Shown here in pieces: positions 3,722 through 9,333 of a stretch of 13,192 nucleotides of DNA. The stretch lies in contig DUGD01000058.1 of NCBI GenBank assembly GCA_013331575.1, positions 20,101 through 33,292 of the forward strand, in the 5' to 3' direction. Position 1 is the stretch's first letter, and every line of letters begins with the position of its first letter. Position numbers and translations under genes: made by a program. The notes under the pieces were generated by a model that had not been told where the DNA came from, did not search any database, and was given only the letters and a program-made list of their open reading frames with translations. The stretch is from Candidatus Woesearchaeota archaeon (GTDB taxonomy: Archaea > Nanobdellota > Nanobdellia > Woesearchaeales > UBA525).

Positions 3722-3919
3722 TCATACTCCGAATAAATCTTCCACTTTGCACTTGAATGTCTTCGATAGCTTCAGCGCTAGCTCGAGCGACGGCACATAT
3801 CGGCCTCCCTCGATGCTTATGATTGTCTGGCGGGTTACTCCTGTCGCTTCCGCGAGCCGTTCCTGGCTCAGTTTCGCGTTCTCGCGGTACTCCTTGAGTC
3901 TATTCTTCGTGAGCGTCAT
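3722..3919 (-). CDS. Small XRE/Cro-family helix-turn-helix regulator
   Basis: A 65-residue protein made almost wholly of one HTH_3 (Cro/C1-type) domain, residues about 7-60. The recognition segment LAEATGVTRQTIISIEGGRYVPSLELALKLSKTF is typical of the YozG-like single-domain repressors. The length is normal for that group, so it is intact. ATG at 3919 is chosen because GGAGAG lies about six bases upstream and the domain starts immediately after. It is the first gene of a two-gene unit with the four-helix membrane protein. Its upstream region carries a dense cluster of inverted repeats (3975-4026) between the probable TATA box and the start codon, which suggests autorepression. The DNA-binding function is secure from the fold; the identity of the operator is inferred. 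Confidence 0.9.
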   Translation of the reverse strand: MTLTKNRLKEYRENAKLSQERLAEATGVTRQTIISIEGGRYVPSLELALKLSKTFKCKVEDLFGV

Positions 3920-3974
3920 GCGTTCTCTCCGGTATTGCGCTGTTTGTGTTGTTCTGTGCGGGCGTTGCGTGATG

Positions 3975-4026
3975 CTGTACGCACGGCATGTACAGTTTAC
4001 TGTACTGTATAGTATACTTTACTATA
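3975..4026 (-). promoter_or_regulatory. Palindrome cluster: likely XRE operators
   Basis: The control region of the XRE gene holds several nested inverted repeats. GTACAGTTTACTGTAC (3990-4005) is a perfect palindrome with 7-bp arms and a 2-bp spacer. CTGTAC at 3975-3980 makes a further inverted pair with GTACAG at 3990-3995. AGTATACT (4011-4018) is an 8-bp palindrome, and TATAGTA/TACTATA (4008-4014 with 4020-4026) forms another dyad. The cluster lies just downstream of the probable TATA box, so bound repressor would cover the transcription start. Confidence 0.6.
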
Positions 4027-4030
4027 AAAA
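4022..4030 (-). promoter_or_regulatory. Probable TATA box of the XRE unit
   Basis: On the minus strand this reads TTTTTATAG. A start site about 25 bp downstream would fall near 4000, inside the palindrome cluster, and would leave an untranslated leader of about 80 bases before the ATG at 3919. That agrees with the gene having its own ribosome binding site, unlike the leaderless genes elsewhere in the window. Confidence 0.45.
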
Positions 4031-4073
4031 CTTTTCTACTGGATTTCTACTGAATTCTAGGCTAATCCCCGTC

Positions 4074-4173
4074 TCTTGTCTGTTGTGGCGGCGGACATAC
4101 GACAGCAGTCCATGTGCGACTGCCGTCGGCTGCGGCCAGATGACGGCAGTCTGGACACGCGCCAAGGCCACAA
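4074..4173 (-). repeat. Structured dispersed element, copy 1
   Basis: A 100-base element repeated, inverted, at 9215-9311 with about 90% identity (roughly seven substitutions and three gap positions by eye). Basal stem TTGTGGC (4083-4089) pairs with GCCACAA (4167-4173). It continues with GGCG (4090-4093) against CGCC (4160-4163), leaving a 3-base bulge at 4164-4166. A second stem is GTCCA (4108-4112) with TGGAC (4152-4156). The apical stem GACTGCCGTC (4118-4127) with GACGGCAGTC (4142-4151) is a perfect 10 bp. The minus orientation is used here only because it matches the plus-strand reading of copy 2. It lies between the divergent XRE and GT-C units. It could be an RNA gene, a regulatory leader or a MITE-like element. 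Confidence 0.75.
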
Positions 4174-4212
4174 TGCGAATGTCGGTTATTTGCATCTCGT
4201 CTCCCACCCGAA

Positions 4213-4221
4213 CTTATTTAA
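4213..4221 (+). promoter_or_regulatory. TATA box of the GT-C operon
   Basis: TTATTTAAA is centred about 28 bp upstream of the ATG at 4246, predicting a leaderless transcript. The box is nearly symmetrical (TTTAAATAA on the other strand), so it might also fire toward the repeat element at 4074-4173. Confidence 0.6.
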
Positions 4222-4245: not shown

Positions 4246-5778
4246 ATGGAGGAAACGAAGCAGAGCGCTGGCACCGGTGATGCGGTCGTTGACGGGAGAC
4301 GGGCGTATCAGGGCTATCTCGCCCTCGCCATCCTCATGATCATCATCTTCGCCGTGAGGATGTCCGTCGTCGAGCAGACGCCATACTTGAGGTCCGACTC
4401 CTATCTCGCGGTGCGTAGCGTGGAGCATATCCAGGAGACTGGCGCACCGCTCCGGGATGACCCGCTCAGCGTGACCGGCCATGCGCGTATCGGGAATCCC
4501 GTCCACGAGTACGGCCTCGCGCTCCTCACCGCCATGACTCCCGTCGCCTACAAGGTATTGCCCAATCTCATCATGGCGCTCCTCCTCATACCGGTGTACC
4601 TCATCACGCGCCGCCTGAGCGGATCGTCATTTGTCGCGTTCATAGCGGCGCTTCTCACGGGCACGGGTCCCGTGCTCTTCGCAAGATCGATGAACTCAGT
4701 AAGCCCCGTGCCTCTCGCGCTCCTCCTCATCCTCATCATCATAGCGCTCCTGCACGATATCGAACGGCACATCTTCCCGCTCATCTTCTGCGCCATAGCG
4801 CTCGCGTTCACGCACCCGCTCATCTTCGTGCTATCGCTCTCATTGCTCATTATGATGCTGCTCCTGCGGGTGGAAGGATATGGCGTTGACGACAGGTTGG
4901 GGGAGCTGTTCTTCTTCACGCTCCTCCTCTCGCTGTGGTTCTACGTGCTGGTCTTCAAGAACGCACTCTTCGAATTCGGCATAGGGACTTTGTGGCGGAA
5001 CGTGCCCGGCGCGTACCTCGCTTCCGTGTTCGGCGACATCTCGCTCCTCTCCATGCTCTATGGCCTGGGTATCATCACGTTCCTGTTCGGCACGTTCGGC
5101 ATGTATCATGCGCTCTTCGAGCGCCCGCACCGCGAAGCTTACGTCGTTATGGGCCCGGTATTCGCCATCGCGGTCCTCATAGTGCTGCGCCTCATACCGA
5201 TAGATCTCGGCATCACTGTCATCACGCCCTTCCTCGCTATCATGGCGGCGTATGGCCTCATGGTCAGTGTGCATTACATCCGTCGGACGAAAGCCGCATG
5301 GTCGATCTATCCGCTCGCTGCGATGCTCGCGGTGTTCTTCACATTCAGCGCGCTTTTGCCCGCGTTGTCGAACGCTAACGGAGAGCTCGCCCGAGCCCCG
5401 TCAAGCGACCAAGTGGCATCATACGAGCGGCTCAGGGACCTGACCGACCAGCACGCAGTGGTACTCACGACCATGGAGGAGGCAGCAGCCGTGCAGTATT
5501 TCAGCGGCCGGACGACGCTCACCGACGACGATCTCCTTCCGGTGCATAATAGCGCGGCCGTCATGCGCGATATCGATGCGGTGTACACCGCCCGTTTCGC
5601 GCTGTCAGTGGCGGGGAAATCCGGCGAGATGGGCTTCACGCACATACTCTTCTCAGAGGACGCCGCGCGCAGATATGGCCGCGATCGCCTGCTCATAGAC
5701 GACGCGGCATGCATCGAGGTCAGCGATTTGCACAGAGGATCATTGTTATACGCAATACGCTGCGAGGAGGCGTCCTGA
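4246..5778 (+). CDS. Polytopic membrane protein, GT-C/STT3-like glycosyltransferase candidate
   Basis: A 510-residue protein with about ten to twelve transmembrane helices between residues 22 and 373 and a C-terminal soluble domain (about 380-510). The first external loop, RSDSYLAVRSVEHIQETGAPLRDDPL (residues 49-74), has the acidic and aromatic pattern (Asp51, Tyr53, Asp71, Asp72) seen in the first loop of GT-C transferases such as oligosaccharyltransferase STT3, where the Asp helps bind metal and substrate. No WWDYG motif is present, so it is not a canonical STT3. The family normally uses lipid-linked sugar donors at the outer membrane face. The start ATG follows a TATA box by about 28 bp. 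It overlaps the next gene by one base (TGATG), and the two share the soluble-domain signature FSGR (here 419-422). Function is inferred from architecture. Confidence 0.7.
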   Translation: MEETKQSAGTGDAVVDGRRAYQGYLALAILMIIIFAVRMSVVEQTPYLRSDSYLAVRSVEHIQETGAPLRDDPLSVTGHARIGNPVHEYGLALLTAMTPVAYKVLPNLIMALLLIPVYLITRRLSGSSFVAFIAALLTGTGPVLFARSMNSVSPVPLALLLILIIIALLHDIERHIFPLIFCAIALAFTHPLIFVLSLSLLIMMLLLRVEGYGVDDRLGELFFFTLLLSLWFYVLVFKNALFEFGIGTLWRNVPGAYLASVFGDISLLSMLYGLGIITFLFGTFGMYHALFERPHREAYVVMGPVFAIAVLIVLRLIPIDLGITVITPFLAIMAAYGLMVSVHYIRRTKAAWSIYPLAAMLAVFFTFSALLPALSNANGELARAPSSDQVASYERLRDLTDQHAVVLTTMEEAAAVQYFSGRTTLTDDDLLPVHNSAAVMRDIDAVYTARFALSVAGKSGEMGFTHILFSEDAARRYGRDRLLIDDAACIEVSDLHRGSLLYAIRCEEAS

Positions 5779-9140: not shown

Positions 9141-9214
9141 GGTTCTAAATATGCGACCCTGACGAAAGACATGCCTGAAGCAAGATCTGCGGTTCTGAAG
9201 TCCGGCAGTCTTTG

Positions 9215-9311
9215 TTGTGGCCTTGGCGTGACTCCAGACTGCCGTCATGGCCGTAGCCGACGGCAGTCGCACATGGACTGCGTCATATATGCGCCGCCAC
9301 AACAGACAAGA
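9215..9311 (+). repeat. Structured dispersed element, copy 2
   Basis: Inverted second copy of the 4074-4173 element, 97 bases. Stems in this orientation: TTGTGGC with GCCACAA (7 bp), a CTT bulge, then GGCG with CGCC. TGAC/GTCA and TCCA/TGGA follow, with one-sided bulges on the 3' strand. The apex is GACTGCCGTC (9237-9246) with GACGGCAGTC (9259-9268). The apical loop differs from copy 1 by a 2-base gap and one substitution (CGTA against CGCA inside a GGC/GCC mini-stem), while the long stems are identical. It lies between the divergent THUMP-methyltransferase-like gene and the 9457 operon, the same kind of location as copy 1. Confidence 0.75.
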
Positions 9312-9333
9312 ATAATGGTGTGTCACACGCCCG

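Follow-up and report, generated by a model that had tools for sequence, protein, structure and literature searches.

Two copies of a structured sequence of about 100 nt lie in inverted orientation in the window, that is, the whole 13,192-nt stretch of woesearchaeal DNA analysed here. They raise the question of whether such a repeat is a functional RNA or a mobile palindrome, the two possibilities offered in a preliminary description. The copies are real: 4074-4173 on the plus strand and 9215-9311 on the minus strand are identical in 90 of 100 alignment columns, and a repeat search recovers them as three inverted pairs of 90-97% identity. Both sit between divergent ORFs, as had been claimed, and the proposed fold is confirmed, with its base stem, its 3-nt bulge (AAG) and its perfect 10-bp apex. 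Fold z-scores are -1.6 (plus strand) and -2.9 (minus strand) for copy 1, and -3.8 and -3.6 for copy 2. We argue, with a probability of roughly 0.7, that the window copies are decayed members of a large MITE-like family (~145 bp) of woesearchaeal non-autonomous DNA transposons, which a DDE transposase would mobilise in trans and whose choice of target TBP/TFB would set, while the pairing of their core looks constrained as DNA.

The ~100-nt unit first described holds as the core, but the whole element is longer, a palindrome of ~145 bp. Indeed, in the flanks of the better copies the core is embedded in a longer palindrome with ends GGCTCTTAGGCAAT, and register with such better-kept copies places the full extents of the window copies at 4052-4198 and 9191-9333. 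Identity of copy 1 to the consensus is 62% and 29% in the arms and 91% in the core. The features are as follows (TIR, terminal inverted repeat; R2, a covariance model described below).

4052..4198, plus strand: copy 1, putative whole element, with degenerate left end GAATTCTAGG and right end ATTTGCATCTC, in register with copies having intact TIRs GGCTCTTAGGCAAT
4081..4174, plus strand: copy 1, conserved folded core (P1, P2, AAG bulge, apex); R2 match of 81.8 bits (L001:1514-1607)
4082..4089, plus strand: copy 1, P1 5' strand GTTGTGGC, pairing with 4167-4174
4090..4093, plus strand: copy 1, P2, GGCG, 4 bp with CGCC at 4160-4163
4118..4151, plus strand: copy 1, apex hairpin with a 10-bp stem, GACTGCCGTC (4118-4127) / GACGGCAGTC (4142-4151), inner GGC-UGCG-GCC; double changes across copies
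4164..4166, plus strand: copy 1, 3-nt bulge AAG between P2 and P1
4214..4221, plus strand: TATA-like TTATTTAA, 15 bp from the putative right end of copy 1 and 32 nt before the ATG at 4246
9191..9333, minus strand: copy 2, putative whole element, both ends decayed; arms 41% and 38%, core 95%; neither side has a TATA at 15 bp
9214..9304, minus strand: copy 2, conserved folded core; R2 match of 85.2 bits (L003:1500-1590)

An ACTGTAC palindrome, which had been noted near one end of each copy, is not part of the element: among 45 copies in the genome from which the window comes (4 of them without a placed end), only the window's two carry ACTGTAC within 60 nt of the probable end. The ACTGTAC palindromes at 3990-4005 lie before a minus-strand frame, starting near 3919 (window 3800-4030), which by eye reads like a small Cro/XRE-type regulator; they may be its operator.

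The element is also not the two-copy local feature that it was taken for. The source genome (1.63 Mb in 99 contigs, 74.6% complete) gives 45 alignments in a DNA search at E up to 10, some of them fragments of a single copy. The DNA search found no match at E 0.001 in 57 other genomes of the order, including three of the same genus, and an exact DNA pattern gave 0 matches in genome contigs and 0 in viral contigs, where records of the source genome may be left out. Covariance models reach further, and running them against the source genome and its relatives, a check proposed at the outset, returned many further copies. Model R1, made from 19 copies (alignment A1), has 95 matches in the source genome at E up to 1, a number in which some copies are counted on both strands. 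Its only matches in 144 further genomes of the order are six in G038, which belongs to another family. Model R2 was made from 52 diverse copies (alignment A4) taken from the source genome and G038 only, and of 352 genomes of the order it matches 17, one of them the source genome. Because of this origin of the training copies, the matches in the other 15 genomes are independent finds. At E 0.001, R2 counts are at least 118 in the source genome, 67 in G295, 48 in G006, 43 in G003, 31 in G038, 27 in G002, 25 in G008, 20 in G004, 7 in G154, 5 in G327 and 4 in G322 (lower bounds, since 150 candidates were scored in the source genome and in eight others), with at least two in each of three genomes and at least one in each of three more; for G001 and G005 there is no R2 match at this threshold among the candidates scored. 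In a draw of 371 genomes from the phylum, eight have R2 matches at E 0.0001, all within the same order. NN gaps occur inside cores or inserts at L015, L033, L035, L038, L039, L119 and L246; the assembly is broken at the repeats, so copy numbers are probably underestimated. At L037, L018, L134 and L116, distances of 47-76 bp separate copies of different subfamilies, as if one site had been hit repeatedly.

The ends of the element include GGCTCTTAGGCAAT, GGCTCTGTCCCAAAT and GGCTAATATGAA. They were sought with an inverted-repeat search that used no promoter information, on those 205 of the 214 rows of alignments A5 and A6 that have 75 nt or more of flanking DNA to the left and to the right and are not identical in sequence to another row. 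An inverted repeat matching in 10/13 positions or more and starting with GG is present in 25 of these 205 core matches, about five of which look spurious by eye (L014, L023, L025, L131 and L242, none of them in the set with target-site duplications); the same test finds none in the other 180. Fifteen of the 25 are flanked by a 9-bp target-site duplication matching in at least 8/9 positions, exactly in ten cases. They come from G000 (4), G038 (2), G295 (2), G027 (1), G155 (1), G322 (3) and G327 (2). Seven TIR groups are seen: GGCTCTTAGGCAA, GGCTCTGTCCCAA, GGCTYWGTRGAAA, GGYTAARTC, GGCARTTATGAAA, GGCTAATATGAA and GGTTCTGTTTGAA. Two more copies, whose ends fall outside the inverted-repeat search window owing to inserts, have target-site duplications of 9 (L027) and 8 (L022). 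IS200/IS605-type (PATE) elements make no target duplication, end in hairpins and use an HUH transposase; for the copies with clean TIRs this type is ruled out by the 9-bp duplications.

An unoccupied target is found in one sister genome. When L207 is compared with L308, G155 has TCCTCAAAG, then 143 bp, then TCCTCAAAG again, and G154 has one TCCTCAAAG and no element. The orthologous flanks are 92.9% identical on the right and 98.4% on the left, where a further indel of ~55 bp lies near the unoccupied target. Target-site duplications and an empty site had both been suggested as worth looking for, and both exist. The elements show three marks of a MITE, namely terminal inverted repeats, a target duplication of constant length and an empty site in a relative. 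Taken with the many copies and the GG start of the TIRs, this identifies them as MITE-like non-autonomous DNA transposons.

The window locus itself was compared with its nearest named relative, Candidatus Woesearchaeota archaeon UBA525 (GyrA 76%), in which 9 of 12 window ORFs tested are found in unchanged order. No core match occurs in the 22-kb orthologous locus of UBA525: both window copies are absent and no junction is recognisable. At the copy-2 site the intergenic length is ~101 bp in UBA525 vs ~346 bp in the window, with start codons of our choosing. At the copy-1 site UBA525 has, by eye, a different small gene upstream; the gene orthologous to the one beside copy 1 has the same promoter (TATTTAAA) in this core-free locus. 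The window also holds a GyrA gene (26-2251) in a woesearchaeote. Matching loci number 33, 3 of them labelled archaea and the rest bacteria, and gene transfer from bacteria fits this mostly bacterial set.

The core has a simple consensus. P1 is 7-8 bp long and free in sequence, mostly ending in GC; P2 is 4 bp (GG-C/A/T-G and its complement); the AAG bulge comes next, followed by an inner hairpin or two. The loop CTGCATGAATCG is found in one large class of cores. The bulge is retained in most copies inspected, with occasional variants AGG, AG and AAT. Although its sequence is free, P1 forms pairs in 94.0% of the cells of A4 and 94.8% of those of A5. P2 does so in 99.5% and 99.8%, respectively, its third pair being C-G, A-T or T-A in A4.

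Compensatory changes in the stems, a point on which the preliminary description had let its reading of the repeat depend, are plentiful. In A4, 92.9% of cells pair, and 315 cells carry a double change vs 90.8 +- 9.7 after shuffling and 28-49 with partners slid; 25 of 28 pairs show a double change, which was equalled in 0 of 500 shuffles. A5 holds 102 matches, 101 of them distinct and six from the training set. Here 88.7% of cells pair, with 718 double-change cells vs 211.9 +- 14.6 shuffled and 85-139 slid; double changes affect 24 of 26 pairs, equalled in 15 of 500 shuffles. The core stems covary strongly, though it must be noted that all these figures are somewhat inflated because the alignments were fitted to the structure.

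Several cores carry additional sequence. A second hairpin insert of ~50 bp (GCGAAG-hairpin-CTTGCGCAGGGAGAACATCTCCCTCGC) lies in the 5' internal loop or, in the opposite orientation, near the apex (L027, L052, L016, L115, L119, L139, L148 and L051), and its part GGGAGAAYATCTCCC has 8 distinct contexts in the source-genome loci examined. A subfamily has the insert TTTGACTACGAAGTAGGCGAACC-TAGGAACGAAGTGACTA at the AAG bulge (L013, L014, L019, L021, L022, L023, L025, L026, L027 and L051); a 129-nt query starting in this insert gives 26 alignments in the source genome at E up to 1, some outside the element. Other cores sit in a constant frame AATGAATCACCGCGGCCTAAAGGCCGCGGTATC ... CCTCGAGCTGAAGCACGAGGTATC (L146, L150, L230, L232-L235, L238, L239, L242 and L244), which we take to resemble the end hairpins of IS200/IS605.

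Arms and core do not decay together. The comparison covers 15 of the 33 copies with both ends placed, the arm consensus being made from the same 15; copies were left out for large inserts (12), for N (L015, L035, L039) or for a divergent apex (L030, L037 and the second copy of L008). In these 15 main-family copies the arms are 25%-100% identical to the consensus and the cores 88-95%. L009 and L011 retain cores of 92-93% beside arms of 25-33%. Conversely, the copies whose right arms are best preserved (L005, L012, L020 and L024; 0.96-1.00) have cores no nearer the consensus (0.89-0.93). A plain decaying MITE does not account for core conservation in copies that have lost their ends. It seems that the core, kept where the arms decayed, has a history of its own, through selection, gene conversion or its own mobility.

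Own mobility would mean that the core is a single-strand hairpin element, REP-like or IS200/IS605-like, which enters several hosts, MITEs among them, P1 being partly the stem of the palindrome entered. The core does occur in three different settings: within TIR elements, within a constant frame of hairpins resembling CCGCGGCCTAAAGGCCGCGGTATC (source genome), and at sites without visible repeats. The free yet paired P1 and the different decay of arms and core fit the same idea. However, no bare-core insertion with an empty site was seen, and the intermediate arm identities (0.34-0.66) look like gradual decay, which makes this explanation unlikely as things stand.

Is the structure one of RNA or of DNA? 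Selection on an RNA strand should make G.U commoner than A.C at paired positions. With pairs having <75% Watson-Crick cells left out, G.T does not exceed A.C in A5 (29 vs 34) or, appreciably, in A4 (16 vs 14). In A6, an alignment that includes misaligned copies with an insert next to P1, G.T reaches 90 vs 36 for A.C (P 2e-6), and P2 alone in A5 has 9 G.T and 0 A.C, all at a single pair. Relative to co-directional neighbouring genes the cores show no orientation bias in three classes (11:17, 6:8 and 11:9); the ORF calling behind this test was crude, with 37 of 198 copies scored inside an ORF and 26 unclear, and matches with <200 nt of flank were left out. Rfam gives no match overlapping a core, either in the window or in 10 other loci. 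Because neither A4 nor A5 has a G.U excess, orientation is unbiased and Rfam gives no match to the cores, a structure acting at the DNA level, as a hairpin or cruciform, is favoured over one acting in a transcript.

The alternative that the core is a functional non-coding RNA, a riboregulator or ribozyme expressed from each copy, with the transposon context incidental, is rather unlikely. The strong covariation with a conserved bulge and terminal loops speaks for it, as do the cores of L009 and L011, so well preserved despite their arms, and the G.T counts in P2 and A6. Against these stand the overall lack of a G.T excess in A4 and A5, the unbiased orientation, the lack of an Rfam match and the at least 118 matches in one genome. 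Thus, of the two possibilities raised at the outset, the mobile palindrome stands, since copies are many, TIRs and 9-bp target-site duplications occur, and one target is unoccupied in a sister genome, whereas a functional RNA is not supported, given no Rfam match, no G.U excess in two of three alignments and no orientation bias.

Particular RNA identities were also tried. A known RNA family is ruled out by the Rfam result for the window and 10 loci, and a cis-regulatory RNA of the neighbouring genes was rejected on the lack of orientation bias. The archaeal BHB splicing motif has a central helix of 4 bp, set off from a further helix at either end by two 3-nt bulges, one on each strand; P1, the 4-bp P2 and one 3-nt bulge fit it, but by inspection there is no conserved second bulge and helix. 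The AAGG of the core resembles the twister-sister ribozyme. That candidate was dismissed as well: there is no Rfam hit, and the strand opposite AAG is continuous, unlike loop L1 in the available part of its description (PMC5660989).

Another explanation of the perfect stems is neutral: template switching between the arms of a palindrome would keep them paired, and covariation would then be no sign of selection. Watson-Crick pairs do make up almost all of the pairing (1919 of 2016 cells in A5), with G.T about equal to A.C. However, such correction should erase the AAG bulge and the unpaired loop bases, and these are among the best-conserved positions, so that we consider this account quite improbable.

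The 9-bp-duplicating elements insert next to promoters. In the source genome, with ends placed by register and decayed copies included, the first 50 nt of 74 flanks contain 22 outward TTTAWA, of which 17 start at 12-18 bp. For 15 clean copies two tests were made: under the strict one, an outward TTTAWA starts 14-17 bp from the element in 9 copies, and under the loose one a TATA lies at 13-18 bp in 13. Random positions in the same loci pass at 1.1% (strict) and 6.4% (loose), and random positions outside ORFs of at least 80 aa in these loci at 2.0% and 9.9% (binomial P 2e-12 and 7e-12). TATA occurs at this spacing in six of the seven TIR groups; L027 has TTTAAA at 17 and L022 GATAAAA at 15. In 7 of the 13 copies passing the loose test, an ORF of 50 aa or more has its start codon 28-34 nt beyond the TATA, which is the usual archaeal spacing for leaderless genes. 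Clean copies outside the source genome pass the strict test in 7 of 11 cases, a near-independent sample only, because the hypothesis was formed on source-genome copies and some of the other flanks had been seen beforehand. The exceptions include L210 and L303, the two copies of the GGTTCTGTTTGAA group, which fail both tests, and L219, which passes the loose one weakly.

The two window copies differ in this respect. Copy 1 fits the spacing, with TTATTTAA at 4214, 15 bp from its probable end, and an ATG 32 nt on; copy 2 does not. With the pattern used, a TATA-like match at 12-18 is absent in 23 of the 41 source-genome copies with an end placed, copy 2 among them. The TATA is left of the core in 10 source-genome copies and right of it in 10, two being counted on both sides.

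That insertion is random and copies survive only between genes upstream of promoters, the 15-bp spacing reflecting selection and not targeting, is very improbable: gene-damaging insertions do get lost and main-family copies of the source genome lean to divergent gaps (12 vs 4 convergent, P 0.08), but survival predicts no spacing defined to within 1-2 bp, the rate at random non-ORF positions of these loci is 2%, and the spacing recurs in six of seven TIR groups.

Targeted insertion of a MITE-like element can be pictured as follows. A DDE transposase supplied in trans would cut and join at the TIRs, and the promoter-bound TBP/TFB complex would set the choice of target, as the spacing suggests. 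The 9-bp target plus ~6 bp presumably spans the TFB recognition element (~6 bp) and the DNA immediately before it. With the target just upstream of that element, insertion would take place at the upstream edge of the TBP/TFB complex and the promoter would be spared. The folded core would be a conserved module shared by elements whose TIRs differ; our best guess for its role is a recognition structure for the mobilising proteins. TBP/Brf1 corresponds to archaeal TBP/TFB. We put forward, tentatively and at somewhat less than even odds, the wider proposal that woesearchaeal DNA transposons use the pre-initiation complex as an address, at the upstream edge of TBP/TFB and as the archaeal counterpart of Ty3/TFIIIB, and that a portable hairpin module of conserved fold moves between transposons whose ends differ and is kept when they decay.

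A partner enzyme of the PF13610 family was considered because the element ends are IS6-like: GG-starting ends such as GGCTCTGT... presumably resemble those of bacterial IS6. PF13610, a DDE family and the one transposase family searched, in 19 genomes, has no match in the source genome and is present in three of the 19 (3 of 17 with cores), namely G154, G155 and G327. L224 and L225 hold an IS of ~890 bp with a PF13610 transposase, whose ends GGTTAAGTAA/GGCTAAGTAA differ from the element ends and which is flanked by exact 9-bp duplications (CTCTTTACC, CCCTGAGCC). The L224 copy has one in-frame TGA in its transposase and is inserted directly beside a MITE end. As far as the accessible parts of the papers go, the IS6 family makes 8-bp duplications (PMC7986276) and archaeal IS6/IS26 members have been argued to be separate (PMC6807381). 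The archaeal IS6/IS26 branch is alike in its GG-starting ends and differs in the length of duplication, 8 bp (PMC7986276) vs 9 bp for the present elements and for the IS of L224 and L225. Membership of the elements in the IS6 family was rejected on the 9-bp duplication, on their being too short for a transposase gene and on the lack of PF13610 in the source genome.

Several known systems are comparable. Extragenic palindromes of the REP/ERIC/Correia type are likewise structured, intergenic and present many times per genome, with compensating changes; the 9-bp duplications, the promoter spacing and the AAG bulge with a 4-bp P2 set the woesearchaeal elements apart. The MITEs of Sulfolobus, Haloquadratum and other prokaryotes and archaea are also short, non-coding, multicopy and intergenic, with TIRs and target duplications, in the part of a review available (PMC10969869). 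The woesearchaeal elements are unlike these in their sharp TATA distance and in a folded core conserved across different TIRs and genera; the term TATA is absent from the main text of that review, within the same limits. Sharp targeting of transposons to an initiation complex is documented, in the accessible portion of one source, for retrotransposons of yeast and Dictyostelium (PMC5911963). According to the same text, TRE5 of Dictyostelium inserts 40-54 bp upstream of the tRNA coding sequence, and a reconstituted Ty3 reaction requires TBP and Brf1 with the integrase and is enhanced by Bdp1 (PMC5911963). Ty3 and TRE5, acting through TFIIIB, are the closest analogue, inserting a short and constant distance away from an initiation complex that contains TBP (PMC5911963). 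However, they are retrotransposons at Pol III genes, whereas here a DNA transposon lies at archaeal promoters of protein-coding ORFs, and the measured quantity is the spacing, from which tethering would follow.

MITEs are already known; what is new here is the promoter address together with the shared folded module. A paper on IS6-family elements of Pyrococcus furiosus deals, in its accessible text, with rearrangements and antisense transcripts and not with promoter-adjacent insertion (PMC6640164). In literature searches reaching few subscription journals, the matches listed contained no description of this element for MITEs or insertion sequences in Woesearchaeota/DPANN, and no case of archaeal promoter-directed transposition.

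The folded core, with covariation that is nearly all Watson-Crick and no clear wobble preference, is a case on which methods for distinguishing structure at the DNA level from structure at the RNA level can be tested. If the proposed use of the promoter complex is true, these archaea would provide a DNA-transposon system that is simple, works with the ancestral TBP/TFB pair and lends itself to in-vitro tests of tethering. It would also suggest how dense small genomes tolerate mobile DNA, and the elements would mark real promoters in uncultured archaea.
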